From: Streptomyces sp. NBC_01571
GTDB taxonomy: Bacteria > Actinomycetota > Actinomycetes > Streptomycetales > Streptomycetaceae
Assembly (NCBI RefSeq): GCF_026339875.1
Contig: NZ_JAPEPZ010000007.1
Coordinates: forward strand, 1 to 51,133
Direction of reading: 5' to 3'
Length of the DNA stretch: 51,133 bases
Below the pieces are notes generated by a model. The model ran no database searches and was not told the DNA's origin. It saw only the letters and a list, made by a program, of their open reading frames with translations. Both the position numbers and the translations under genes were made by a program. Below, piece by piece: positions 1,862 through 51,072 of this stretch; within the stretch, counting starts at the first letter, position 1, and each line of letters opens with the position of its first letter.

Positions 1862-3544
1862 CCTCAGCCCGGATCCACCGGCTGATGCCTGTGGATAGTT
1901 CTTCCGGAAACGAAGAAGTGCCTTGCGACCTGCGATGATGGGGTTTCTCTAGGACCACATCAGGCACGATCAGCAAGGCACTTCCGAGATGCAATCTTCC
2001 CATGCCGCGGCGGCGGTCTCATCCGCGTTTGATGATCCGAACCTGATCGCGTACGGCGGGCTGGAGCCGGTGGTGCGGCTGGCCGAGCGGTGCGGTCTGC
2101 CGGCTCTGGCCGGGGAGCACATCCGTCTGCCGGCCTCGAAGGACGGCACCGGTGCCTTCCCCGCGGCGAAGCTGATGTCGCTGGTGGGCGGCATGGTCGC
2201 GGGCGCCGACAGCATCGAGGACATGGACCGGCTGCGGCACGGCGCGATGGGCCGCCTGTTCTGCGGAGTGCGGGCCCCCTCCACGCTGGGGTCGTTCCTG
2301 CGCTCCTTCACGCACGGGCATGTGAAGCAACTGCACGCCGTGGCCCGCCGGTTCCTGCCCGAACTGGCCCGTCACACCCCACTGCTGCCCGGCGCGGACC
2401 AGGCCGCCTACGTGGACATCGACGACACCATCCGCCGCACCTACGGCTACGCCAAACAAGGCACCGGGTACGGATACAGCAAGGTCAAGGGCCTGAACGC
2501 ACTGCTCGGTATCGTCTCCACACCCCTGTCCGCCCCCGTGATCGCCGCCACCAGGCTGCGCAAAGGGCCCTCGAACTCCGCACGCGGGGCGGCGGCGTTC
2601 GTGGCCGAGACCATCCGCACCGCCCGTGCCTGCGGCGCCAGTGGCCTGCTGGTGATGCGCGCGGACTCCGCGTTCTACGGCGCCGACGTCATCAATGCCT
2701 GCCGGACGCTGGGCGCCCGTTTCTCGGTCACGGTGCGGATGAACGCTTCCGTCAAGGCCGCCATCGCCCGCATCGACGAGGACGCCTGGACGCCGATCAA
2801 ATACCCCAAGGCGGTCTGGGACGAGGAGGGCCAGTGCTGGATCTCCGACGCCGAGATAGCCGAGGTCCCCTACACCGCCTTCACTTCCAAACCGAAGAAG
2901 CAGCAGGTCACCGCCCGTCTGATCGTACGCCGCGTCAAACGCCTGAACGCCGGTGGCGTCCCCGCCGGGCAGGGCACGCTCTTCGATACCTGGCGCTACC
3001 ACGCCGCGTTCACCGACTCCCCACTCTCCTTGGCCGATGCCGAGCGCGATCACCGACGGCACGCTGTCGTCGAGCAGGTGATCGCCGATGTCAAGAACAG
3101 CGCCTTCGCCCACGCGCCGTCCGGTCATTTCCAGGCCAATGCCGCCTGGCTCGCCCTGGCAGCCCTGGCACACAACCTCACCCGCGCCGCCGGCGCCCTG
3201 GCCTCCACGTTCCACGCCAAAGCGACCACCGCCACCATCCGTGACCACCTGATCAACGTGCCCGCCCGCCTGGCCCGCTCCGCCCGCCGCCTCACCCTGC
3301 ACCTGCCCGAACGCTGGCCCTGGAGGGAGGACTTCGCCCAGCTCTTCAGCATCGTGCACGCACCACCAGTCCTCTGACGCTCCCTGACCGACCTGCCCGA
3401 ATGGGCCCGAGACCCGTGGACAAAGTGGAAGAGCTGGGCAGACCAGCGGCCGCCCCATGCCCGAATCCGCAACTCAGCCCCGACACAGCCTGCACGACCC
3501 CGAAACGATCAACCCGGAATCAAGCCGGTGGATCCGGGCTCAGG
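1862..3544 (+). mobile_element. IS1380-family insertion sequence, complete
   Basis: The terminal inverted repeats are 22 bp with one mismatch: AGCCCGGATCCACCGGCT at 1866-1883 and its complement at 3523-3540, extended outward to CCT at 1862 and AGG at 3544. The element is 1683 bp with one transposase gene, normal for the family. The four bases outside each end (CTCC left, AACC right) do not match. Either no target duplication was kept or the flanks were rearranged after insertion. It lies 27 bp from the IS701-derived remnant. Confidence 0.85.
1989..3377 (+). CDS. IS1380-family transposase
   Basis: This 462-residue DDE transposase is full length for the family. Candidate catalytic residues are Asp in YVDIDDTIRRTYG, Asp in VMRADSAFYG and Glu in VVEQVIADVKN, the IS1380 arrangement with a long insertion before the glutamate. 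The N-terminal segment (about residues 20-110) carries the conserved SLVGGMVAGADSIEDMDRLR pattern. It lies between matched inverted repeats with no internal stop or frameshift, so the element may still be active. Confidence 0.9.
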   Translation: MQSSHAAAAVSSAFDDPNLIAYGGLEPVVRLAERCGLPALAGEHIRLPASKDGTGAFPAAKLMSLVGGMVAGADSIEDMDRLRHGAMGRLFCGVRAPSTLGSFLRSFTHGHVKQLHAVARRFLPELARHTPLLPGADQAAYVDIDDTIRRTYGYAKQGTGYGYSKVKGLNALLGIVSTPLSAPVIAATRLRKGPSNSARGAAAFVAETIRTARACGASGLLVMRADSAFYGADVINACRTLGARFSVTVRMNASVKAAIARIDEDAWTPIKYPKAVWDEEGQCWISDAEIAEVPYTAFTSKPKKQQVTARLIVRRVKRLNAGGVPAGQGTLFDTWRYHAAFTDSPLSLADAERDHRRHAVVEQVIADVKNSAFAHAPSGHFQANAAWLALAALAHNLTRAAGALASTFHAKATTATIRDHLINVPARLARSARRLTLHLPERWPWREDFAQLFSIVHAPPVL

Positions 3545-3743: not shown

Positions 3744-4157
3744 CTACAGGTCGAAGTCGAGCTGTTCGACGTCGGTGAACTCCACCATCAGGCCCTGGGC
3801 GCGGCGGCCGCCGTCGCGGAAGTACGTCTCCCCGAGGCCTTCGGCGGTGATCGCGCGCAGCTCGTTCTCGCCTGCGCCGGCAGCCTGGGCGTCTGGGAGG
3901 CGGGCGGCCCAGGCGGGTGGCAGGGCGAGGGTGAGATGGCGCAGGCGGGCGTCGTCGGTGGTGCCGGGGGCGGCGGTGAACCCGAACCGGGCCCGGGTGT
4001 CGATGATGATGCCCGTGGTGGTGGCGGCCTGTCGGCGGGCCTGTTCGCGGACGCGGGGCTGCCAGCGGGCGCGGACGGCGTCCGCCAGGCGCCCGGCGAG
4101 CTCCGGGCGGGGCCGGCGGATCTGGTCTTTGACGTACCGTTCGACCCTGTTGCCCAT
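3744..4157 (-). pseudogene. tpg: Terminal protein Tpg of linear replicons, N-terminus removed by an IS1182-family element
   Basis: Tpg is the protein that caps the 5' ends of Streptomyces linear chromosomes and plasmids and primes end patching. The frame has the family's hallmark order: VERYVKDQIRRPRPELA (tail of the helix-turn-helix), RWQPRVREQARRQAATTTG, TRARFGFTAAPGTTDDAR, then YFRDGGRRAQGL and VEFTDVEQLDFDL at the C-terminus. Intact Tpg is about 185 residues; only about 132 host-derived residues remain. The IS1182 end starts at 4143, and its bases supply an in-frame ATG (4157) giving MGNR before the Tpg sequence. Most of the DNA-binding region is lost. The partner gene tap, normally just upstream, is not here. 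Confidence 0.8.
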
Positions 4158-4400
4158 TCGGGTTGTGGGCTGACAGCGGCTTGATTGTGCTGGCACGGTT
4201 GGTGCTGCGGCCGGTTCCTTCCTGATCCCCGGTCGCGGGGTGGGAGTGGTCGTGTCGTTGGAGCCGCGGTCGTGGCCGGAGCCGGATCCCGTGGTGACGC
4301 GGGCGGTCCGGGCGAAGAACTACGGACGCGCGGTGCCGTTGCCGGTGGCGGTGCGCGACCGGCTCGGGGAACTGTTCCCGGACGAGGAGTTCGCGGCTGC
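4143..4400 (+). mobile_element. Truncated IS1182-family element (first 258 bp only)
   Basis: These bases match 49236-49493, the beginning of the full element near the right end of the window, with about one difference (GGGGTGGGA here, GGGGTGAGA there). They include the left inverted repeat GACCCTGTTGCCCATTCGG and the first codons of the transposase from the GTG at 4240. Identity stops sharply after GCGGCTGC at 4400. What follows is unrelated coding sequence of the kinase gene, so a deletion or recombination removed the rest of this copy. Confidence 0.9.
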
Positions 4401-4447: not shown

Positions 4448-6952
4448 GTGTGGACCGGCCAGTCGGCGCAGGGCCGGGCGTACAGCTTCGGGCCAATGGC
4501 CCTTCGGGCACACACACGGTGCGTGGAGAGCGGGTGCGTCCCGACGGGTATGAGCGCGGCCGCGGTGGCTCGGCACCTGGTGGCGCAGCACCGGGTGCCG
4601 CTGGCCGGGCCACGGCCGGGGCTGGTTCCCTGGCAGGTCGGCGAGATGCGGGCGCGGCTGCTCCTGGGCGGCAAGGACGTATCGCTGCGGAGGCTGGCGC
4701 CGCTGCTGGCCGGGGTCCGGGTGGACGCTGGGCTGTCGGTGCTCTGGCAGCGGTGGGAGCAGGATTCCCACCAGGTCATCGCCGAGGTGTCCGCCCAGTA
4801 CCCGGGGCGGGCGGTGATCGTTCGGTCCTGCTCGGACGGAGAGGACGGGTGGGAGCAGTCGGGTGCGGGCGCTTACCTGAGCGTGCCCGTGCCCATGCCC
4901 GCGGCCCCCGGCGCGATCGCCGACGCGGTGCGGGAGGTGTTCGCCTCTTACTGTGCCCACGGGCCTGACGCCCGGGTCCTGGTCCAGGAGTGGCTGGATC
5001 CGGTGCAGGCGGCCGGGGTGGTCACCACCCGGACTTTGGCGGGCGCCCCGTACTACACGGCGACCCTCGATCTGGTCTCGGGCCGCACGGACACTGTGAC
5101 CGCGGGGACGGCCCAGGGGGCACAGACCTGGTACGTACGGCGCCCACAGGGCCGTGTGCGCGGGCCTCGGCCCGGTATGCCGTCTGCCGGGCGGCAGTTG
5201 CTGGACGCGGCTGTAGAGACCGAGCGGTGCGCGGGGACAAGCCGTCTCGATGTGGAGCTCGCGCTCGCCGACGGTGCGGTGCACCTGCTCCAGGCCCGTC
5301 CGCTGGCGGCAGCACGAGCTGTCGGGGACGAGCGTGTGCACGCGATGGTCGACGCCGCACAGCGTCAGCTCGCCGACTTGGCCGGCCGTCGGGCTCTCGC
5401 CCCGGGTGGGCCCGGGGTGGTGTTGTCGACGATGGCGGACTGGAACCCGGCCGAGATGCTCGGCCGCCGCCCATCCCCGCTGGCCGCATCGCTGTACGCC
5501 GCGCTGATCACCGACCGGACCTGGGCCGAACAGCGCGCCGCCTACGGCTACCGGGATCTGCGGGGCACCCGGCTGATGCACATGGTTGCGGGATCCCCGT
5601 ACGTCGACGCGCTCGCGAGTCTCGCCTCGTTCGTCCCGGCCGGGTTGGACGAGCCCCTTGCGGCCGCGGTGCTACGGGCGATGGGCGAGCGGCTGGTGAC
5701 GGATCCGGGGGCGCACGACAAGGTCGAATTCGAGATCGCGGCGACGTGCTGGACTCCGCGGGTCGCGGACCGGACGGCATACCTGGCCGGGGCTGGGATC
5801 GGCAGCAGCGCGCGGCGGCGGCTGCACGAGCAGCTGCTGGCCGTCACGCGCGGCGGGGTCCAGCGTCTCTTGGACGATGCCGCGTGGCTGGAGCAAGCGG
5901 CCGCACCCACGCGGGCTGACGCCGGCGCGGGGCGGCTCGCGGCGACGCTGAACGGAGCCCGGACGGCGGCGTTGAGGTTCGCGCACCTGGCCCGGGCGGG
6001 ATTCGTGGCCACCGACCTGCTGCGTGTCCTGGAGGCAGAGGGGCTGGCCGACCGTCGAGAGGAGTGGATGCACGGTCTGGGCACCCCGGCCGCGGCGCTG
6101 CGGCGCGACGCCTGCGAGGTCACGGTCGGGCGGCTGGACTGGGAGGCGTTCGTGGACCGCTACCGGTGGATCCGGCCGGGCACGTACGACCTGGCTGTGC
6201 CCGCATACGGCGACGACCCGGAGGGCTACCTGCGGCCCTTGCTCACCGTCCCTTGGGACGAGCCGAGCGCGGCCGCGGCGCCGTGGAGCGGCAGGAACTC
6301 CGGTGCAGTCACGCGCGCGGTGGCGCCGCTGGGGCTGGACGCGAACGGGCTGGAAGCGTTCTGCCGCGCCGGGATCACCGGCCGGGAGTACGGCAAGGCG
6401 CTGTACGCGCAGTGGGTCAGTGCGGTGCTGGAGGCCGCTCGCGCCCACGGCCGGACAAATGGGCTGCCCAGCGGGGACGTCCGGTTCCTGCGCATCGGTG
6501 ACCTTCTCGCGGGCGCCCCGGGCCGGTGGCCGGGCCTGGTCACCCGGCGCCGGGCGAACGCCGCGGTGTGCGCCCTCGTTGAACTGCCTGACCTGGTCAC
6601 CGCTCCGCAGGCGCTCGACTGCTTCGTGCGGGGGCCGGGCCGGGCCAATTTCGTCACCAGCGGGCAGGCCTCCGGGCCCGTGCACACCAACCCGGCCCCG
6701 TCGTATCCACCCCCGCCCGGGGTGGTGATCGTTCTGGAGGCGGCCGACCCGGGATACGACTGGGTCTTCGCCCACCGGCCCGGGGCTCTGGTCACCGCCT
6801 ACGGCGGCGCCAACTCCCATATGGCGATCCGGTGCGCCGAACTCGGCGTCCCGGCCGCGATCGGCGTCGGCACAGCCACCCACGCCCTGGTGGCCGCGGC
6901 CCGCTCGGTGGCCGTGGACGCGGCGGCCGGGCGTGTGGACGTGCTGTCGTGA
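4448..6952 (+). CDS. PEP-synthase-like ATP-grasp/swivelling-His kinase; candidate L-glutamine kinase (Cj1418-like)
   Basis: The 834 residues have the pyruvate-phosphate-dikinase layout. An N-terminal ATP-grasp half has RSCSDGEDG near residue 126, VLVQEWLDP near 177 and LLQARPL near 281. A helical middle follows, then a C-terminal phosphohistidine domain with GGANSHMAIRCAELGVPA, where His791 would carry the phosphate. Such enzymes phosphorylate pyruvate, rifampicin or, in Campylobacter Cj1418, the amide nitrogen of glutamine. Immediately downstream are an amidotransferase and a nucleotidyltransferase in the Cj1417-Cj1416 order, so the glutamine kinase role is inferred from context. The frame is open back to the IS junction at 4401 and the start (GTG 4448; ATG 4496 or 4550 also possible) is uncertain. 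The native 5' end may be missing. Confidence 0.8.
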   Translation: MWTGQSAQGRAYSFGPMALRAHTRCVESGCVPTGMSAAAVARHLVAQHRVPLAGPRPGLVPWQVGEMRARLLLGGKDVSLRRLAPLLAGVRVDAGLSVLWQRWEQDSHQVIAEVSAQYPGRAVIVRSCSDGEDGWEQSGAGAYLSVPVPMPAAPGAIADAVREVFASYCAHGPDARVLVQEWLDPVQAAGVVTTRTLAGAPYYTATLDLVSGRTDTVTAGTAQGAQTWYVRRPQGRVRGPRPGMPSAGRQLLDAAVETERCAGTSRLDVELALADGAVHLLQARPLAAARAVGDERVHAMVDAAQRQLADLAGRRALAPGGPGVVLSTMADWNPAEMLGRRPSPLAASLYAALITDRTWAEQRAAYGYRDLRGTRLMHMVAGSPYVDALASLASFVPAGLDEPLAAAVLRAMGERLVTDPGAHDKVEFEIAATCWTPRVADRTAYLAGAGIGSSARRRLHEQLLAVTRGGVQRLLDDAAWLEQAAAPTRADAGAGRLAATLNGARTAALRFAHLARAGFVATDLLRVLEAEGLADRREEWMHGLGTPAAALRRDACEVTVGRLDWEAFVDRYRWIRPGTYDLAVPAYGDDPEGYLRPLLTVPWDEPSAAAAPWSGRNSGAVTRAVAPLGLDANGLEAFCRAGITGREYGKALYAQWVSAVLEAARAHGRTNGLPSGDVRFLRIGDLLAGAPGRWPGLVTRRRANAAVCALVELPDLVTAPQALDCFVRGPGRANFVTSGQASGPVHTNPAPSYPPPPGVVIVLEAADPGYDWVFAHRPGALVTAYGGANSHMAIRCAELGVPAAIGVGTATHALVAAARSVAVDAAAGRVDVLS

Positions 6953-7608
6953 CCCGGCCGGGCGGCTGGATCGCCGTCACCCAGCGGCGGGTGCGGTTCG
7001 CCGAGCGCGGCGAGGAGGGCGACTACCTGGACGCGCGGTGGATGCCGCTGCTGGCCGGTCACCGGGTGGCGCTGGTGCCCAACGACGTCGGCGCGGCCCG
7101 CGCGCTGCTGGCCGGGCTGCCGTTGACCGCGATCGTCCTGTCCGGCGGCAACGACCTACCATCCGCCCCGGGCGCCACCGACCACGCGCCGACCCGCGAC
7201 GCGGTCGAGGACTGGCTGCTCCACCACGCCGAACAACACGGCACCACGGTCATCGGGATCTGTCGCGGAGCGCAAGCGATCGCGATGCGTGCCGGTGCCC
7301 GTCTGACCGACGACGCACCACGGCACGCCGGAACCCGGCACCAGGTCACCGCCGTTCGAGCCACTGCGTGGAGCTGGCCGGCAGCGTTCACCGTGACCTC
7401 CCACCACCGCCACGTCCTGCCCACCGGCTCCTGGCCCGCCGTGCTGCCGGTGATCGCCGTAGCCGACGGCGGCGACACCGTGGAGGCGTTCACCCACGCA
7501 TGTCTGCCCTGGTGGGGGCTGATGTGGCACCCCGAGCGTGAGCAGCCGCCGGGGCCCGCGACCCGCGCCCTGTCCCACCTGCTCACGCACGCTCCCCAAT
7601 CCGTCTGA
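6949..7608 (+). CDS. Class I glutamine amidotransferase; candidate gamma-glutamyl-CDP-amidate hydrolase (Cj1417-like)
   Basis: The 219-residue protein has the class I GATase triad: nucleophile Cys105 in GICRGAQAIAM and the His194/Glu196 pair in WHPEREQ. It resembles the PuuD-type hydrolases that cleave gamma-glutamyl amides. Its GTG start overlaps the stop of the kinase gene by four bases (GTGA), so the two are translationally coupled. With the adjacent kinase and nucleotidyltransferase, the likely substrate is a gamma-glutamyl amide carrying phosphate or CMP on nitrogen, hydrolysed to glutamate and a phosphoramidate. The fold is clear; the substrate is inference. Confidence 0.8.
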   Translation: MTRPGGWIAVTQRRVRFAERGEEGDYLDARWMPLLAGHRVALVPNDVGAARALLAGLPLTAIVLSGGNDLPSAPGATDHAPTRDAVEDWLLHHAEQHGTTVIGICRGAQAIAMRAGARLTDDAPRHAGTRHQVTAVRATAWSWPAAFTVTSHHRHVLPTGSWPAVLPVIAVADGGDTVEAFTHACLPWWGLMWHPEREQPPGPATRALSHLLTHAPQSV

Positions 7609-7628
7609 CCCGAGAGGGGCGTCTCGTC

Positions 7629-8441
7629 ATGCGCGCTGTCATCCTTGCTGCGGGCCGGGGCTCACGCCTGGGCTCCCTGAGCGACTCCCGTCCGAAACCG
7701 CTGCTGCCGCTCGCCGGGGTTCCGCTGCTGACCCGGCTCCTGCACAGCCTCAACGCGGCCGGGTGCGACCCGGTCACGCTCGTCACCGGCTACCGTCCGG
7801 CCGAACTGGCCGCCCACGCCAGCGGCGCCCGCACCGTGCACAACCCCCGCTGGGAGCACACCAGCATCGCCGCCAGCCTCCTGGCCGCCGCCGACGCGGG
7901 AGCCCTCGACCACGGCGCCGTCATCACCTACGGGGACATCGTCGTGGAACCCCGCGTGTTCGCCGCCCTGCTCGCGGCGCCCGCTGCGGACGTGTGCCTC
8001 CCGGTGAACACCGGGTGGCTGACGCTGTGGCAGGCCCGGATGAGCGATCCGCTCGACGACTGCGAGCGGATCCTGATCGACCCGCAGGGGCTGCTGGTGG
8101 ACATCGGCGGCACCCCGGCCGCACTGGACGAGGTCCATGCCCAGTTCATGGGCATCCTGCGTCTCAGCGCCGCCGGTGCCGCTGACCTCACCGGCTTCTA
8201 CCGCCGATCCCTGCACACGGACACGGCCGCGGCCCGGTGGGACACCACCGCCCTGCTTGCCGCCTGGCTCGCGGCCGGCGGCCGCGCGACGACCGTGCCC
8301 GTCGACGGCGGCTGGCTGGAGATCGACACCGCCCACGACCGGGACATCTACGAGCACCTGCACACCGCCGGACAACTCACCGGCCTGTGCGACCTGGCCA
8401 CCACCCTGCCCACCGACCAAGGAGACACCACCCATGCCTGA
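7629..8441 (+). CDS. NTP-transferase-fold nucleotidyltransferase; candidate CTP:phosphoglutamine cytidylyltransferase (Cj1416-like)
   Basis: The 270 residues begin with the nucleotide-binding signature AVILAAGRGSRLG (residues 3-15) and the lysine of RPKPLLPL (Lys23), as in sugar-phosphate, phosphocholine and phosphonate cytidylyltransferases. Length and motifs suit small CTP-using members better than the larger glucose-1-phosphate enzymes. It starts 20 bp after the amidotransferase. In the Campylobacter phosphoramidate route the matching enzyme (Cj1416) couples CTP to glutamine phosphate before the amidotransferase acts. Base preference cannot be read from sequence. Confidence 0.8.
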   Translation: MRAVILAAGRGSRLGSLSDSRPKPLLPLAGVPLLTRLLHSLNAAGCDPVTLVTGYRPAELAAHASGARTVHNPRWEHTSIAASLLAAADAGALDHGAVITYGDIVVEPRVFAALLAAPAADVCLPVNTGWLTLWQARMSDPLDDCERILIDPQGLLVDIGGTPAALDEVHAQFMGILRLSAAGAADLTGFYRRSLHTDTAAARWDTTALLAAWLAAGGRATTVPVDGGWLEIDTAHDRDIYEHLHTAGQLTGLCDLATTLPTDQGDTTHA

Positions 8442-9825
8442 CACCCTGCGCCCGCTCGCCGGTCGGCACGTCCACTTCAACGGCATCGGCGGCAAGGGCA
8501 TCGCCCCCGCCGCCGCCCTCGCCCACCAGGCCCAGATGCGCGTCACCGGCGACGACCTCGAACCCAACCACCGCACCCACGCCTTCGCCGCCGAAGGCAT
8601 CAACGTCACCCTTGGCACCAATACCGTCCCCGAGGGCGCCGAGTACCTCGTCGCCACCGGCGCTCTCCCGCGCCAGTCGAGCGGCCCACAGCCGATGGCC
8701 CGCCTGGAGTTCGTCCAGCACCTCCTGGCCGCCCACGACAAGAAGCTGATCGCGGTTGCCGGATCTCTCGGCAAGTCCACCGCCGCCGCCCTGCTCCACC
8801 AGATCCTCAGCCCGCTGGACCCCTCCGCTTACATCGGCGCCGACGTCCCCGGACTGTTCTGCGGCGGCCAGCTCGCGGCCGGTGAGTGGGCCGTCGTCGA
8901 GGCGTGCGAGTACCAGGGCGCCTACCGGGCACTCACCCCGGAAATCGTCATCGCCCTGAACCTGGTCCAAAACCACGAGGACCTCTTCGGACCCGGCACC
9001 GCCGGGTTCGAGCGCAGCCTCGCCGCCTTCCTCACCGAGACGTCCACCCCGCCGAGCATGGTCGTGCTCCCCGACGACGTCGCCGCCCTGCTCACCCCGC
9101 GCCTTACCGGAACGGCGGGAATGACGGTGCAGACCGTGGGCGAGGACGCCGACTGGAACGTCGACGTCACCTCCATCGACCCCACCGGCACCACGTTCCG
9201 CCTCGCCCAGCACGGCACCTACGCCGGCACATGGACCGTTCCCGCCCCGGGCCGTCACCTGGTCACCGCCGCCGCCTGCTCCCTGGTCACCTCCCTGCAC
9301 CTGGGCGTCAGCCACGCCGACAGCGCCGAGGCACTCGTCGGCTTCCGGCTCCCGCGCCGCCGGATGAGCACCATGCACCACGACGACCGGCTGGTCCTCG
9401 TCGATGACAACGCGCGCCAGCCCGGCCAGGCCGCCGCCCTCCTCCAGGCCCTGCGCCAGGCCCACCCCGACCGGCACCTCGTCATTGCCGTCGCCCCCTG
9501 GGGCCGCAAGAACCGGCGCGACCTCGCCGCATGGGCGCTCGGCCTGTCCGAGGCGGACACCGTGTGGATCCTGCCCGTCGGTGACGCCGCAGTCCCCGGC
9601 GGTGAAGCGCCCGACGCCGATGCCCGTCTCGCCGAACTGATCCGTCTGGAGGGCACCCCCGCCTACACCGTCCGCCCTGACGGCGATCTGCCACTCCCGG
9701 CCGGCCCGGACACCACGGCCCTGCTGGTGGCCACCGCCGGGTACGACGGGAGTCTGAAAACTTTCTCCGCCCTGCACGACCAGACCATCGCCCGCTTCGG
9801 CGCCGACCCCGCCCCGGCCGCATGA
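8434..9825 (+). CDS. Divergent Mur-type ATP-dependent amino acid ligase
   Basis: At 463 residues this has the three-domain Mur ligase plan. The N-terminal Rossmann segment is HVHFNGIGGKGIAPAAAL, the ATP loop is GSLGKSTAAALL (G110-S115), and the C-terminal Rossmann domain begins near residue 310. It is related to MurC, which adds L-Ala to UDP-MurNAc. The C-terminal signature DDYAHHP of MurC is replaced by DDNARQP (324-330), so the acceptor or amino acid is probably different. Its ATG overlaps the preceding gene by 8 bp. I infer it joins an amino acid to an intermediate of this pathway rather than serving the cell wall. Confidence 0.75.
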   Translation: MPDTLRPLAGRHVHFNGIGGKGIAPAAALAHQAQMRVTGDDLEPNHRTHAFAAEGINVTLGTNTVPEGAEYLVATGALPRQSSGPQPMARLEFVQHLLAAHDKKLIAVAGSLGKSTAAALLHQILSPLDPSAYIGADVPGLFCGGQLAAGEWAVVEACEYQGAYRALTPEIVIALNLVQNHEDLFGPGTAGFERSLAAFLTETSTPPSMVVLPDDVAALLTPRLTGTAGMTVQTVGEDADWNVDVTSIDPTGTTFRLAQHGTYAGTWTVPAPGRHLVTAAACSLVTSLHLGVSHADSAEALVGFRLPRRRMSTMHHDDRLVLVDDNARQPGQAAALLQALRQAHPDRHLVIAVAPWGRKNRRDLAAWALGLSEADTVWILPVGDAAVPGGEAPDADARLAELIRLEGTPAYTVRPDGDLPLPAGPDTTALLVATAGYDGSLKTFSALHDQTIARFGADPAPAA

Positions 9826-10763
9826 GCCGCGGCACCCTCACCCTGCTCGCGGCCCGGGCAGACGGCAGCGTCACCATCGGCCCCGATGACTCCCCGCCCA
9901 CCACCACCCTGACAACCGGGAGCAATCTCGACACAGCCGTACACGCCATGAACGACGCCCTCCGTCTCGACCCCGGCGCCACGCTCCTGGCCGTCGCCGA
10001 CACCACGACCCAAGGACTCGTTCATCACGTCGCGTGGCACGGGACTCTCCCAGCTTCCTGGAACCCGCCTGCCCCGTGGCGGACGGTCCCCTTCGGCGAG
10101 GTCCTGGCGACGCTTGCTCCCACGGTCGCCGGGCGGCTGAGGGCAGCGAGCCGCGCCGGCATCCTCGGCAAGAGGACTGTGCATCTCCACGACGGCCTTC
10201 GTCCCGGCGCTCGGCCGACCAAGTCCGAACGCACGGCCGCCCAGTTCACCTGGCACGCCCGAACACCCACCGCCGAGGAGGACGAGCGGGTGCGGCAGGT
10301 GTGGGGGTGGCTGACCGACGCGTGCGGCAGGGTCCTGGTCGTCGTCGACCGCCACGGCGCCCCCGGTCTGCCCGGCGGCTGTCCCGAGCCCGGCGAGAGC
10401 CGGTCCGCCACTCTGGCCCGGGAGACCCTGGAGGAAGCCGCCGCCCACCACGGACAGCCTGCCGTCCTCGGCTTCCAGCACGTCACCGAGGCCGGGCGCG
10501 CACCGTACCTGCAACTGCGGATGACCGCGCCGCTCCTGGACGTCGGGCCCGCCGCACCCGATCCGGACAACGGGGAGATCTACCAGCGCGTCCTTGTCCC
10601 CGCCGCCCAGGCAAACCTGCTGCTCGGCTGGGGCCCGGAAGGCGACGCCCAAGCCGCCGCCGTCGCCTCGGCGTTCCCGCGGGCACACGACTGCGCCCTC
10701 CGGCACGTCCCCGAACACGGGTGGATGCCGGAGGGCGCATGCCAGGCGGGAAGCGTCAGCTGA
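9822..10763 (+). CDS. Nudix hydrolase with an N-terminal extension
   Basis: The 313-residue protein has a Nudix box near residues 186-207: GCPEPGE, seven residues, then RETLEEAA, with the metal-binding glutamates present. About 150 residues precede it without a fold I recognise. Its ATG overlaps the Mur ligase stop by four bases, the fourth coupled junction in the operon. Nudix enzymes cleave nucleoside diphosphates linked to another moiety. Here a CDP-linked phosphoramidate would be a fitting substrate, but sequence alone does not show it. The 3' end overlaps the convergent murC-like gene by 8 bp. Confidence 0.8.
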   Translation: MSRGTLTLLAARADGSVTIGPDDSPPTTTLTTGSNLDTAVHAMNDALRLDPGATLLAVADTTTQGLVHHVAWHGTLPASWNPPAPWRTVPFGEVLATLAPTVAGRLRAASRAGILGKRTVHLHDGLRPGARPTKSERTAAQFTWHARTPTAEEDERVRQVWGWLTDACGRVLVVVDRHGAPGLPGGCPEPGESRSATLARETLEEAAAHHGQPAVLGFQHVTEAGRAPYLQLRMTAPLLDVGPAAPDPDNGEIYQRVLVPAAQANLLLGWGPEGDAQAAAVASAFPRAHDCALRHVPEHGWMPEGACQAGSVS

Positions 10764-12087
10764 TCAGGGCCTCGGCGGAGGCGTTGACGTCGCCGGCGCC
10801 GATCAGCATCACCACGTCGGCGTCGGCGGCCTCGTCCAGCAGCAGCCGGACGAGGTCCGCCCGGCCGGGCGACATCCGCGTCTGCGGCGCCCGGCCGGCG
10901 ACGTCGGCAACGAGCTGTTCGGCGACGTGCGTCCACTCCTCGGGGATCTCCCGGGCCGGGTAAACCGGCTCGACCCATGCGAGGTCCGCTGCGGCCAGCG
11001 CGTCAAGGAACTGGGCCTGGAACTGCTCGGTCCGGGAGAACAGGTGCGGCTGGAACACCGCCAGAACCCGGCCCTCACCCGCGACCTGCCGGGCCGCGGC
11101 CAGCGCCGCCGCCACCTCAGCGGGATGGTGGGCGTAGTCGTCGTACACCCGCGCACCCCCCGCAGTCCGGCCGCGCAGCTCGAACCGCCGCGCCAGCCCG
11201 GGGAAGGTCAGCAGCGCCGCCCGGATCTCCTCGGGTACACACCCCCGGGTGAGGGCGACCTCTACGACCAGAGCGGCGTTGTGAAGCTGGTGTTCACCCG
11301 GCTGGTTGACCTCGTAGTCCTCGCCGTGGAGGCGGAACCGCATCGGCTCACCGTCGACCAGCTCCGGCCGCACGAGGGTCATCCCGGTCACGAACGGCCC
11401 AAGGTGCTCGGCGGCCTGGGCGGAGACGATCGCGGTCTTCGCGCTGGTGGCGAACTCTCCCAGCACCTTCGCGACGTCGGTGATGTCCTGGTAGGCGCCG
11501 GTGTCCCCGACATGATCGAGGTCGACATTGGTGACGACCGCGGTGTTCACGCGGTAGCTCAGCAGGCTCCTGTCGGACTCATCCGCCTCGATCACCAGCG
11601 TGCCGCCCGTGCCGGCCGCCGCGTGCACCCCCGGCGGACGCAGCAGCGCGCCCACCACGTAGCTCGGATCCTGCCCGCAGGTGGTCAGAACGTGCGCGAG
11701 GAGCGCGGCGGTGGACGACTTGCCGTGCGCGCCACCGACCGCGATCGTCTCGTGCAGCGCCGTGAACTCGGTCAGCAACACGGAGCGGTGCAGCTCCCTC
11801 AAGCCCCGACGGCGGGCCTCCACCCGCTCGACGTTGTCGGACCGTACCGCGCCGGAGAACACGACCTCGGCCGGGGCATCGGGGACGTTCGCTGGGTCGT
11901 GGCCGACGACCACACCGCCCACGCCGTTCCGGACCAGGGACTCGGTGTAGATCGTCTTCTTGGCGTCGCTGCCGGTGACGTGCGCGCCCAACTCCCGGGC
12001 CACAAGGGCCAGTCCGGACATACCGCAGCCCCCGATTCCGATGAAGTGAAGACGACGACCGGCTAAAGGCTTAGGGGCATCTGGCAT
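10756..12087 (-). CDS. MurC-type ligase (UDP-N-acetylmuramate--L-alanine ligase paralogue)
   Basis: The 443-residue product is a complete MurC-type ligase: UDP-binding FIGIGGCGMSG (15-25), ATP loop GGAHGKSSTAALL near 115-127, the acidic EADESDRS, VTNVDLDHVG, and the C-terminal DDYAHHP and FQPHLFSRT motifs. Unlike its neighbour it keeps the classical residues. The usual GTHGKTT of chromosomal MurC is GAHGKSS here. Streptomyces has its housekeeping murC in the chromosome, so this is likely an accessory copy: either a tailoring ligase or a resistant MurC protecting the producer. It faces the phosphoramidate-like operon tail to tail. Confidence 0.85.
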   Translation of the reverse strand: MPDAPKPLAGRRLHFIGIGGCGMSGLALVARELGAHVTGSDAKKTIYTESLVRNGVGGVVVGHDPANVPDAPAEVVFSGAVRSDNVERVEARRRGLRELHRSVLLTEFTALHETIAVGGAHGKSSTAALLAHVLTTCGQDPSYVVGALLRPPGVHAAAGTGGTLVIEADESDRSLLSYRVNTAVVTNVDLDHVGDTGAYQDITDVAKVLGEFATSAKTAIVSAQAAEHLGPFVTGMTLVRPELVDGEPMRFRLHGEDYEVNQPGEHQLHNAALVVEVALTRGCVPEEIRAALLTFPGLARRFELRGRTAGGARVYDDYAHHPAEVAAALAAARQVAGEGRVLAVFQPHLFSRTEQFQAQFLDALAAADLAWVEPVYPAREIPEEWTHVAEQLVADVAGRAPQTRMSPGRADLVRLLLDEAADADVVMLIGAGDVNASAEALIS

Positions 12088-12616
12088 AGCCCGGATTCTA
12101 GCGGCGCGCCCCTTACCTCCGGCGGAGGTCTACGCACCTGTTTCGTAACCGCAGCGTCGTACATGGCACCCTCGGCGAGGCCGTCGGCCATGCTGAGCAG
12201 GCTCACCAGGTTCACGTCGCCGCGCTGGCGGGGCGGGGCAGTTCGTCGGGGTAGCTCTCCAGCGGTTCCAGGGGGTTCGTGCAGGTCGGTCTCAAGGTTC
12301 CTCCCCGTGCCAGGTGCCACCGCCCCCGATTCTCAGTCCGGGTCGCCGGAACTCGCGACACGGCCCGAGCAGTGGAGCGAGGTGATGCGGGCGCTCTACG
12401 GCGACGAACTGACTCCGTCGTGCGAATGCTGCGCTGACCGGCTCAAGTGCACACCAGTGTCAGCAACTTGGGGTCTCGTTGCTGACAACGGGGTGCGTCG
12501 AAGTCACCGTCGTTGATGCTCGTTCGTGTTGTCAGGTGCCGGTCGCCCCTAGATTCCGGGCTTCCTGTCGATACTCTTCCCTCCGTGACTTGGGCGTATC
12601 GACTGAAGGTTCTGAC
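12088..12616. other. Gene-poor interval between murC-like gene and parA
   Basis: No convincing gene is seen. A stretch around 12340-12450 has coding-like codon use (frame with EQWSEVMRALYGDEL and CECCADRLKC) but no supported start or homologue, so it may be a decayed gene. The right part holds the repeated GTTGTCAG motifs described separately and must carry the parA promoter and probably that of the murC-like gene. Confidence 0.5.
12456..12539. promoter_or_regulatory. Repeated GTTGTCAGCAAC-like motifs upstream of parA
   Basis: Three related sites: AGTGTCAGCAAC at 12456-12467 (plus), GTTGTCAGCAAC on the minus strand at 12478-12489, and GTTGTCAGGTGC at 12528-12539 (plus). The first two form a 9-bp perfect inverted repeat (GTCAGCAAC/GTTGCTGAC) with a 10-bp spacer. 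The position 80-160 bp upstream of parA suggests an operator or partition site, but no binding data support this. Confidence 0.5.
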
Positions 12617-36802: not shown

Positions 36803-37603
36803 ATGCCGAGCCCGACTAAGTACCTCGACCTGGCCGAGACACTGACTCGCCGCATCAACGCCGCGATGAAGCCTGGCGACCAGTTCCTCACCGTCCGCGA
36901 GATCGCCGAGCAGTTCGACGTCGGCAAGAACACCGCCAGCCGAGTAGTGCAGGTCCTCAAGGAGCGCGGTGTCATCTCCGGAAAGCCGAACGGCAAGACG
37001 TGGGTCCGTGTCCCTCCAAAGCGCACCGAGCGCAGCAACGAGCGCTACTTCGAGGAGAAGCAGCTCGTCCGGGAGCCGGAGGAGGTACGCAGCCAGAACG
37101 GTTCGGCCGAACGTGACCAGGGCGTCTCCCTGCGCGATCTCGCGGAAGATGTCGCTCTTCACGAGGTCGTGGTGTGCCCTGACGACATCGCCAGCGTGAT
37201 GGGGCTGGCTCCGGGCACGAGGGTTCTGCGCCGCTCCAGGGTCCGCCGCGTCGACAGGAGTGCGGGGGCTGGCAGCTCGGTGTCCTACGTGCCGCTCGAC
37301 ATCGTCGAGCGCGACCCCTCAGTCTTCGACGAGGCCAACGACCCCTGGCCTGGCGGTATGCAGCACCAGCTGTACACCGTCGGCGTCGAGCTCGCGAAGA
37401 TCATCGACTACGTCGCAGCGACGATGCCGACGGAAGAGGAAGCCGAGGAGCAGGACATTCCGCCGGGTGTTCCGATCTTCCGCATCCGGAAGGTCTCGTA
37501 CGCCACCACCGGGCGTGTTGCGGAGGTCACCGACATCCCGCTGCCCGCCGACCGCTCAGCCCTTGTCTATGTCACCGAACTTCCGAAGTGGAGCGACTCC
37601 TGA
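36803..37603 (+). CDS. GntR-family repressor with UTRA ligand domain (KorA/TraR-like)
   Basis: The 266-residue protein has an N-terminal winged helix (LTVREIAEQFDVGKNTASRV, about residues 29-48) and a C-terminal UTRA-like domain (VLRRSRVRRVDR, VSYVPLDIVE, ALVYVTELP). Streptomyces conjugative plasmids use such GntR/HutC proteins to keep transfer genes off. It diverges from the transfer block with repeated sites between. Its stop overlaps the glycosyltransferase start (TGATG), tying the two genes together. Confidence 0.82.
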   Translation: MPSPTKYLDLAETLTRRINAAMKPGDQFLTVREIAEQFDVGKNTASRVVQVLKERGVISGKPNGKTWVRVPPKRTERSNERYFEEKQLVREPEEVRSQNGSAERDQGVSLRDLAEDVALHEVVVCPDDIASVMGLAPGTRVLRRSRVRRVDRSAGAGSSVSYVPLDIVERDPSVFDEANDPWPGGMQHQLYTVGVELAKIIDYVAATMPTEEEAEEQDIPPGVPIFRIRKVSYATTGRVAEVTDIPLPADRSALVYVTELPKWSDS

Positions 37604-38355
37604 TGCCGACGATCACCGTTCTGACGCCCGTGTACGAGGGCGGGTACGCCTATCTGCACGAGCTGCACGAGTGCCTCTCCGGTCAGAAGCTCCCCGCCGG
37701 CTGGCAGCTCGAGTGGGTGATGCAAGAGGACGGACGGACGGGCAAGCCGCTGGAGGCAGTTCCGGACGCCCCGTGGATCTCGAAGAGCGCCGGCCGCTGG
37801 GGTGGAGCCGCCCAGGCCCGCACCCTGGGCTTGGCGCGCGCCACCGGAACCTTGCTGCGCTGCGTTGATGCCGACGATCTCCTCCCCGACCAGGAGACTC
37901 TCGCCCGCGACATCGAGATCCTGGAGGCCAACCCGTCCTACGGCTGGACGGTTGCCCCGTGCCTGGACCTGCATCCTGATGGCCACCTGGAGCCCGGTCC
38001 GAACGACCCTGCCCCCGGGCTGCTGCCGGATCGGGCGCTCCTGGACGGCGCCAAGCGCGGTGAACTGCCAGTCATGGGCACCACACTCACCGCCCGCACG
38101 GACCTCGTGCGCCTATTGGGAGGCTGGCCCGCGATCCCCGCATTCGAGGACGCCGGCGTCGTCCTGTTCTGCGAGGCAGTCAGCCGGGGGTGGATGCAGG
38201 CCAAGCCGGGCGAGATCTACCGCAAGCACCCCGGCCAGCACACCGTCACCGCGGCCTACCACGACGACGAAGAGAAGAGGCTGCGCCAGGAGATCGTCAT
38301 TGACAGGGCCGAAGCGCTGCATGCCTCCAGTTGGCGCTGGTCGCCGACGGCGTAG
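37603..38355 (+). CDS. Family 2 glycosyltransferase
   Basis: At 250 residues it has the GT-A opening PTITVLTPVYEGGYAYL, a nucleotide-sugar-binding DADDLLPD (aspartates for metal) and a C-terminal acceptor region (AFEDAGVVLFCEAVSRGW). It starts at ATG 37603, overlapping the gntR stop. No membrane helices are seen, so it is probably cytoplasmic. Its coupling to a plasmid-type repressor is unusual; the acceptor could be a small molecule or protein. Confidence 0.8.
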   Translation: MPTITVLTPVYEGGYAYLHELHECLSGQKLPAGWQLEWVMQEDGRTGKPLEAVPDAPWISKSAGRWGGAAQARTLGLARATGTLLRCVDADDLLPDQETLARDIEILEANPSYGWTVAPCLDLHPDGHLEPGPNDPAPGLLPDRALLDGAKRGELPVMGTTLTARTDLVRLLGGWPAIPAFEDAGVVLFCEAVSRGWMQAKPGEIYRKHPGQHTVTAAYHDDEEKRLRQEIVIDRAEALHASSWRWSPTA

Positions 38356-49235: not shown

Positions 49236-51072
49236 GACCCTGTTGCCCATTCGGGTTGTGGGCTGACAGCGGCTTGATTGTGCTGGCACGGTTGGTGCTG
49301 CGGCCGGTTCCTTCCTGATCCCCGGTCGCGGGGTGAGAGTGGTCGTGTCGTTGGAGCCGCGGTCGTGGCCGGAGCCGGATCCCGTGGTGACGCGGGCGGT
49401 CCGGGCGAAGAACTACGGACGCGCGGTGCCGTTGCCGGTGGCGGTGCGCGACCGGCTCGGGGAACTGTTCCCGGACGAGGAGTTCGCGGCTGCATTCGGC
49501 AAGACGGGGCCGGCGGGTTGGTCTCCGGGGCGCCTGGCGTTGGTGACGGTGTTCCAGATGGCGGAGAACTTGACGGACCGCCAGGCCGCTGAGGCGGTGC
49601 GTGACCGGCTCTCGTGGGCCTACGCGTTGGGGCTGGGGCTGGAAGACACCGGCTTCGACTTCACCGTGCTGTCCCAGTTCCGCACTCGGGTAGTTGAGCA
49701 CGGTCTGGAGGAGAAGGTCCTGGACCTGCTGCTGACCCGTCTGAAAGCGCAGGGTCTGGTCGGGGCCGGGGGCAAGCAGCGCACCGACTCCACCCGTATC
49801 GTCTCCGCGGTGCGGGACCTGAACCGCCTGGAGCTGGCGGGTGAGTCGGTACGCGCGGCAGTGGAGGCGTTGACGGTGGCGGCCCCGCACTGGGTCGCCG
49901 GCGTGCTGGACGTGCCCGGCTGGTCGCGTCGCTACGACACCCGCATCGACACCTGGCGCATGCCCTCCTCCGCCACCAAGCGCGACCAGCTCGCGCTGAC
50001 CTACGCCCGCGACGGCCTCGCCCTGCTCAGCTCCGTCTACGATCCGCGCTCCGAACCCTGGCTGCGCGAGCTGCCCGCGGTGCAGACCCTGCGCACCGTG
50101 CTGCTGCAGAACTACACCCGCACCACCGCGCAGAACGGACGCGAGGCGGTGGCCCGCCGCACCAGGACCGAGGAGGGCGGCGACGGGCTGCCGCCCGGCC
50201 ATCTGCGCATCGCTTCCCCTACGACCTCGACGCCCGCTGGTCCGCCAAGCGCGACACCTTCTGGAACGGGTTCAAGCTGCATGTGAGTGAGAGCTGCACG
50301 GATGCGCCCGAGAAGGAGCGCACCGCCCCGAACCTGATCACGAACGTGGCCACCACCGCCTCCACCGTCCCCGACACCAAGGCCCTGGACGGCATCCACC
50401 AGCAGCTTCAGCGCCGCGGCCTGCCTCCGGGCGAGCACTACCTCGACTCCGGCTACCCCAGCGCCGAACTGATCGTGAAGTCCCGCAAGACCTACGGCAT
50501 CACGCTGATCACCCCGGTTCTGCTCGACCAGTCCCGCCAGACCCGCGCCGCCCAGAGCTTCCAGGCCGACGCGTTCACCATCGACTGGAAGTACCAGCAG
50601 GTCACATGCCCCCAGGGACAGACCAGCTCCTCCTGGAGCCCGTGCACCCAGCACGGCCACCCGATGATCGTGGTCGCCTTCACCAAGCCGACCTGCGGCC
50701 CCTGCCCGGTCCGCGAGTTATGCACCACCAGCCGCCGGGGCTTCCGGCAGCTCACCTTGAACCCTCGCCCGCTGACCGAGGCCCTGCGCACCGCACGCGC
50801 CGAACAGGCCGACCGGGACTGGCAGGACGCATACGCCCTACGCGCCGGTGTCGAGGGCACCATGCGACAAGCGATCGCCGTCACCGACAGCCGCCGGGCC
50901 CGCTACCGCGGCCTGGCCAAGACCCACCTCGAGCACGTCCACAGCGCCGTCGCCCTCAACCTTATCCGCCTGAACGCCTGGTGGAACGGCAGGCCACTCG
51001 ACCGCCGCCACACCAGCCACCTCGCCCGACTCGAACTCAGCCTCGCCGCGTAACCGAATGGGCAACAGGGTC
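49236..51072 (+). mobile_element. IS1182-family insertion sequence, full length
   Basis: The ends are inverted repeats GACCCTGTTGCCCATTCGG (49236-49254; the right arm is the complement of 51052-51072 with one base less near the inner end). Size is 1837 bp. It holds a single transposase gene broken by a one-base frameshift. No convincing target duplication is seen. The first 258 bp are repeated at 4143-4400. Confidence 0.85.
49333..51053 (+). pseudogene. IS1182-family transposase with a -1 frameshift
   Basis: The first frame (49333-50220) has the family N-terminus (AENLTDRQAAEAVRDRLSWA, LSQFRTRVVEHGLEE) and the first catalytic Asp in RTDSTRI. At a run of four C (50216-50219) it must shift by -1 to continue as PYDLDARWSAKRDTFWNGFK. 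That frame carries the second Asp (YLDSGYPS) and the Glu (GVEGTMRQAI). Restoring one C gives one frame of about 573 residues. A TTA codon lies at 50718-50720. The heptamer at the shift is not a standard slippery site, so mutation or sequencing error is more likely than programmed shifting. Confidence 0.82.

Follow-up and report, generated by a model that had tools for sequence, protein, structure and literature searches.

A plasmid-borne Streptomyces gene cassette that may make a small N–P compound by a glutamine kinase route

Natural products with a nitrogen–phosphorus (N–P) bond are rare, and few pathways to them are known. A contig of Streptomyces sp. NBC_01571 raises the question of whether a five-gene cassette on an actinomycete plasmid encodes such a pathway. 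This contig (C7; 51133 bp in a genome of 11.5 Mb) was analyzed in its entirety and is referred to below as the window. An earlier note, made from the sequence alone, had described a kinase, an amidotransferase, a nucleoside triphosphate (NTP) transferase, a Mur ligase, and a Nudix enzyme at 4448–10763, and gene calls made with our own script confirmed all five open reading frames (ORFs), in the order described and tightly coupled (Table 1). The kinase and amidotransferase genes overlap by 4 nt, the NTP transferase and Mur genes by 8 nt, and the Mur and Nudix genes by 4 nt, with a gap of 20 nt between the amidotransferase and NTP transferase genes. We estimate a slightly better than even chance (roughly 55%) that the product of this cassette is a small N–P compound formed via the glutamine kinase route. 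If it is, actinomycetes also draw on a route characterized in the Campylobacter capsule to make small molecules, and they have put a Mur ligase to use away from the cell wall.

Conservation of a trio resembling the Campylobacter pathway

The cassette contains three of the same enzyme families as the O-methyl phosphoramidate (MeOPN) pathway of Campylobacter jejuni, encoded by cj1415-cj1418. According to the excerpts available of the papers cited here and below, Cj1415–Cj1418 make cytidine diphosphate (CDP)-phosphoramidate 3'-phosphate from glutamine, ATP, and CTP (PMC11800397), Cj1418 is a glutamine kinase formerly annotated as phosphoenolpyruvate (PEP) synthase or pyruvate phosphate dikinase (PPDK) (PMC10971088), Cj1416 is a phosphoglutamine cytidylyltransferase (PMC12275187), and orthologues of cj1416–1418 occur in 13 of 30 Campylobacter strains (PMC3907429). 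The order kinase–amidotransferase–NTP transferase is like that in C. jejuni; this order and the assignment of the three proteins to Cj1418, Cj1417, and Cj1416 are as given in the earlier note.

Scanning species genomes with a profile of the kinase yielded at least 579 loci, the best 80 of which were analyzed (78 after removal of two repeats: L092, the same locus as L032, and L120, a near copy of L064). Two smaller sets comprised the other loci of the genus, from which L044 was removed as the same locus as L050, and six of the 14 plasmid records matched by the kinase; neither the counts nor the tree include L045 (G310; 112 bits to the kinase profile) or L046/L047 (G087). An amidotransferase was found within 6 kb at 72 of the 78 loci, an NTP transferase within 7 kb at 70, and both at 69. 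The three genes had the same order and strand at 66 of the 78; some loci are cut by contig ends, which account for some of the misses. The trio was also in order at 5 of the 6 other loci of the genus and at 4 of the 6 plasmid loci. Because the families and the gene order recur across phyla, the cassette is more than a chance arrangement, and the trio pointed out in the earlier note is borne out as a conserved module. The conserved trio supports a putative CDP-phosphoramidate (glutamine kinase) pathway.

The five-gene form was found once more, in S. toxytricini JCM 4421 (L050/L044), where all five genes stand in the same order with identities of 53, 55, 62, 60, and 49%. Outside the cassette, the 60 kb around this copy matches the called window genes only in a 37-residue Lsr2-domain stretch. 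Since all five genes recur in order and almost nothing else is shared, these five form the unit, Mur ligase and Nudix enzyme included. Both of these are present at only 1 of the 90 loci (78 + 6 + 6), that of S. toxytricini. Within the genus, the kinase exceeded its cut-off in 8 of 392 genomes, the window's included, and at E ≤ 1e-60 the only member of the kinase family among 396 genomes of the phylum was the window's own. Likewise, the cassette Mur matched only itself at E ≤ 1e-70 in 394 genomes of the class. Viral contigs gave one weak locus when scanned with the NTP transferase and none with the Mur ligase.

O-Methyl phosphoramidate genes have been reported on a Borg element (PMC12660748), and so, as far as that excerpt goes, such a module on an extrachromosomal element is not new in itself. 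The Streptomyces pyrimidine nucleoside compounds EM2487, 1100-50, and K-563 have a P–N link (PMC6429109, PMC6434342); they also contain a cyclopentane and an alkylamine, and their likeness to the cassette extends only to their being Streptomyces P–N nucleotides. The excerpts of PMC6429109 and PMC10971088 describe no such cassette for a Streptomyces glutamine kinase, although in open-licence literature such an absence is weak evidence.

Identity of the three enzymes

The kinase differs from an ordinary PEP synthase. It passes the PRK05849 model NF004508 (538.9 bits; cut-off, 501), and the PEP/pyruvate-binding C-terminal barrel, PF02896, is not among its Pfam matches, for which reason an identity as ordinary PEP synthase or PPDK was rejected. 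We take Cj1418 itself to be a PRK05849 member. The only Pfam match is PF00391 (PEP-utilizer mobile domain), at the C terminus. The ATP-grasp model gave no match, and the ATP-grasp part was seen via a profile match to PEP synthase N-domains and a Foldseek match to 5hv6. This part is followed by a central helical part and by a C-terminal His swivel that ends the protein (predicted local distance difference test [pLDDT] score of the structure model, 87.1). His791, Cys105, His194, and Glu196 are at the positions that the earlier note had named; His791 is invariant across 20 aligned kinases, as is the Cys/His/Glu triad in nine aligned amidotransferases.

The best NCBIfam model for the amidotransferase is gamma-glutamyl-CDP-amidate hydrolase, NF045546. 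PuuD-type and GMP-synthase-type identities were rejected because they score lower.

For the NTP transferase, a single sequence matched several sugar-phosphate models and structures, and the best match of a nine-member profile in the PDB was CTP:phosphocholine cytidylyltransferase. An identity as a sugar-phosphate enzyme was rejected because the profile puts the CTP:phosphocholine enzyme first. R13, K23, and D103 are invariant in the nine sequences. The excerpt of PMC12275187 gives an Arg, a Lys, and an Asp as critical for COG1213-type cytidylyltransferases, and we set R13/K23/D103 as their counterparts, with the positions paired by motif. To that extent the protein is like the COG1213 cytidylyltransferases LicC, CpgD, and Cj1416, with which it also shares an N-terminal NTP-binding motif. 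It differs in its place in the present trio, where N-phosphoglutamine is its putative substrate.

Proposed pathway

In the proposed pathway, the kinase would act as a glutamine kinase to yield N-phosphoglutamine, the NTP transferase would join N-phosphoglutamine with CTP to give gamma-glutamyl-CDP-amidate, and the amidotransferase would hydrolyze the glutamyl group away, leaving CDP-phosphoramidate. We infer these three steps from the families, the residues, and the conservation of the module, and the two steps that would follow from fold and genetic linkage only. The MurC fold holds a nucleotide-diphosphate substrate and forms an amide through an acyl phosphate. Because this fold binds a carboxylate-bearing nucleotide diphosphate, as gamma-glutamyl-CDP-amidate is, the MurC-fold ligase might add an amino acid or peptide to the CDP-linked N–P intermediate. 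It is possible that, with MurC polarity, an amino acid is joined to the alpha-carboxylate of gamma-glutamyl-CDP-amidate, or that, with reversed polarity, an acyl group is placed on the nitrogen of CDP-phosphoramidate. The Nudix enzyme, because its Nudix box is present, would then split the pyrophosphate to release CMP and a free phosphoramidate product. Unlike the C. jejuni MeOPN genes, the window cassette includes the MurC-fold ligase and the Nudix enzyme, lies on an actinomycete plasmid, and has no recognized capsule genes beside it. The cassette suggests an undescribed small molecule as its product, not a capsule decoration.

The cassette Mur has the MurC fold and the ATP P-loop (mean pLDDT of the structure model, 72.4) and is 20% identical to the MurC structure 1p3d, with 140.8 bits on TIGR01082, below the cut-off of 335.1. 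Unlike MurC (UDP-N-acetylmuramate-L-alanine ligase), it has DDNARQPGQ in place of DDYxHHPTE and GGKGIAP where MurC has GGAGM(G/S)G. The flanking, convergent MurC narrowly misses the same cut-off. It is 36–39% identical to the chromosomal MurC, and no other match to it was found at E ≤ 1e-90 among 295 genomes of the genus. Possibly it is a self-resistance protein or an accessory ligase, and as the former it may protect the producer. Searches of the open-licence literature on MurC as self-resistance and on a Mur ligase with a phosphoramidate listed nothing relevant. It can be speculated, at long odds, that the MurC-type ligase was recruited from the cell wall to CDP-bound phosphoramidate and carries out a novel type of peptide ligation on a nucleotide carrier, that the released product is an N-acyl phosphoramidate stably mimicking the acyl-phosphate intermediates of amide ligases, among them Mur enzymes and glutamine synthetase, and that the flanking MurC is the producer's drug-tolerant copy of the target.

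Observations against the glutamine kinase route and alternative explanations

A number of observations weigh against a glutamine kinase route to an N–P compound. The likeness to Cj1416–Cj1418 rests on family and gene order, not on the C. jejuni sequences. In a single-sequence search PEP synthases were the best solved relatives of the kinase, but over the swivel domain only, and in the window strain the kinase N terminus and the native upstream region are lost. The earlier reading of the amidotransferase is supported by the triad and by the best NCBIfam model, but the score of the protein on NF045546, 72 bits, is below the curated cut-off of 250. Ten trio amidotransferases score 103–145 bits, and none reaches that cut-off. 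Each of 14 control genomes has sub-cut-off matches to the model, and the genome of the window strain has them at two other sites (47 and 22 bits). Such a match alone therefore proves little, and the weight falls on best-model rank and gene neighbors. The best NCBIfam model for the NTP transferase describes a sugar-1-phosphate enzyme, at 57.2 bits, far under its cut-off, and COG1213-type cytidylyltransferases act on various phosphates, according to the excerpt of PMC12275187. There are also chemical difficulties: a MurC-like reaction needs a carboxylate, which CDP-phosphoramidate lacks, and if gamma-glutamyl-CDP-amidate is what the ligase uses, hydrolase and ligase would compete for it. Lastly, neither an amidotransferase nor an NTP transferase lies within 10 kb of the kinase of Microbispora bryophytorum (52% identity), the closest after S. 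toxytricini among the matches listed, and the Microbispora genome has no NTP transferase of the cassette type (best score, 96 bits; those of the two cassettes score 351 and 361). A kinase without trio partners counts against a uniform function of the clade, and the cassette's kinase clade may do something else.

This last point leads to an explanation that we consider unlikely, in which the substrate of the kinase clade is a different amide or small molecule and the five-gene cassette produces or alters a peptide-like substrate that has no connection with glutamine N-phosphate. Kinases from the window, from S. toxytricini, and from Microbispora do form a clade of their own (Shimodaira–Hasegawa-like approximate likelihood ratio test [SH-aLRT] support of 100 in a quick-method tree of 91 rows), and the nearest solved fold is that of an antibiotic phosphotransferase: the top Foldseek match of the kinase model was rifampin phosphotransferase (RPH-Lm, 5fbs), at 14% identity and a TM score of ~0.4. 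Next to the Microbispora kinase (L051:9620-14012) are a histidine phosphatase gene and another gene, without a Pfam match, whose product we read as sulfotransferase-like. However, two of the three clade members retain the amidotransferase and NTP transferase in module order. An even less probable alternative is that the CDP-phosphoramidate of the trio decorates a cell-surface polymer, as in the Campylobacter capsule, with Mur and Nudix as editing or housekeeping partners. Elsewhere the trio does lie beside polysaccharide genes, a sugar transferase and a polysaccharide tyrosine autokinase at L032 and a glycosyltransferase and a sugar O-methyltransferase at L033. Against this, Mur and Nudix are kept in order in S. 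toxytricini, and Pfam searches of 20 other window proteins and of six S. toxytricini neighbors (five left, one right) found no recognizable polysaccharide gene, the sole exception being a sub-cut-off glycosyltransferase match at 37603-38355 of the window. An ORF for a kinase of the Cj1415 type, which we take to be the APS (adenosine 5'-phosphosulfate)-kinase kind, was found neither in the window nor in the 60 kb surrounding the cassette of S. toxytricini; one 30-residue P-loop match was the only hit.

It is also conceivable, if doubtful, that the cassette is decaying cargo, damaged by an insertion sequence (IS) and nonfunctional in the window strain, which would be compatible with a glutamine kinase route in the intact S. 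toxytricini cassette. The kinase start in the window is non-native, and the 5' end has been replaced by an IS remnant. At the opposite end of the contig, 49236–49493 form the front part of an IS transposase gene, and the 258 bp at 4143–4400 are 99.6% identical to this stretch (blastn). When the kinase from S. toxytricini (981 aa in our own gene call) is aligned by tblastn, the match starts at its residue 127, corresponding to window position 4397. An IS remnant abutting the kinase and an alignment beginning only at residue 127 indicate that an IS event cut the gene, with loss of the native start, the N-terminal part, and the upstream region. A further IS lies at 1862-3544. On the other hand, the frame at 4448–6949 is free of stops, with possible starts at GTG 4448 or ATG 4550, the catalytic residues are kept, and the PRK05849-matching part, which begins after the lost part, is complete (4655–6946). 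The lost region is, moreover, not universal. Of 90 homologous kinase ORFs, 50 also contain a match to the NTP transferase profile within the same ORF, which we take as a probable N-terminal domain, and 40 have no such N-terminal match.

Features of the window

Window positions 12400–37000 match 204 plasmid records, 199 of them from Streptomyces, and none covers >80% of the length of the segment. The phosphotransferase, histidine phosphatase, Lsr2, and WhiB genes found at 14.5–21 kb were rejected as parts of the cassette, since genes so named underlie the matches in other Streptomyces plasmids.

Table 1. Cassette genes and adjacent elements in the window
Feature	Position	Strand	Evidence
Kinase	4448–6952	+	PRK05849 family
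Class I amidotransferase, candidate gamma-glutamyl-CDP-amidate hydrolase	6949–7608	+	NF045546 top NCBIfam; triad Cys105/His194/Glu196
NTP transferase, candidate phosphoglutamine cytidylyltransferase	7629–8441	+	PF12804; Arg13, Lys23, Asp103; profile match 1jyk
Divergent MurC-fold ligase	8434–9825	+	P-loop GSLGKST present; MurC motif altered
Nudix protein	9822–10763	+	PF00293, 32 bits; Nudix box intact, from residue 186
Divergent MurC, convergent	10756–12087	-	TIGR01082, 331 bits; 3' end shares 8 nt with Nudix gene
IS element upstream of cassette	1862–3544	+	DDE_Tnp_1_4 transposase 1989–3377 (Pfam PF13701); inverted ends 22 nt, 95% complementary
Remnant, front of second IS; abuts shortened kinase gene	4143–4400	+	blastn copy of 49236–49493

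Related loci

If the proposed route is right, the kinase and its partner genes could be used as hooks for genome mining; one of the eight kinase-positive genomes of the genus has nonribosomal peptide synthetase-type genes beside the trio. At this locus (L043:2928-14915; G387), the trio lies beside an adenylation enzyme, a peptidyl carrier protein (PCP)-condensation protein, an ATP-grasp ligase, and a major facilitator superfamily (MFS) transporter, and it looks like an N–P peptide biosynthetic cluster.

Some trio loci carry an APS-kinase-like gene and a methyltransferase. A gene of the former kind was found within 10 kb at 14 of the 78 loci; at the 2 of 6 genus loci and 2 of 6 plasmid loci that also have one, the match is by construction, as these are the source loci of the profile (L033, L036, L041, and L042, with the APS-kinase name from Pfam for L041, from record annotation for L033 and L036, and from our own reading for L042). 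Two loci in the same genus as the window, L041:4811-13258 (G108) and L042:4728-12134 (G197), combine the trio with the APS-kinase-like gene and a methyltransferase and are close to a MeOPN-type gene set (by Pfam for L041 and by our own reading for L042). On the Agrobacterium vitis plasmid pRvVAT039a (L037:3348-13256), the trio is, by record annotation, accompanied by LysE translocators, a CDP-alcohol phosphatidyltransferase, a TauD-type dioxygenase, an asparaginase, and an amino acid-tRNA ligase-related gene.

Mur ligases also adjoin a PRK05849 kinase at L039:4939-12927 (G251, same genus), where, by our own reading, the order is murC-murE-murD-alanine racemase-kinase, followed immediately by a miaB-like gene. 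The MurC-like gene there is a different one, with no Nudix match and no amidotransferase or NTP transferase nearby, making this a second, different association of PRK05849 kinases with Mur ligases. On the chromosome of the window strain (L146:6071-8860; G000:C1), a MurC-like gene was matched in pieces, in different frames, and adjoins a gene that we read as MurF-like.

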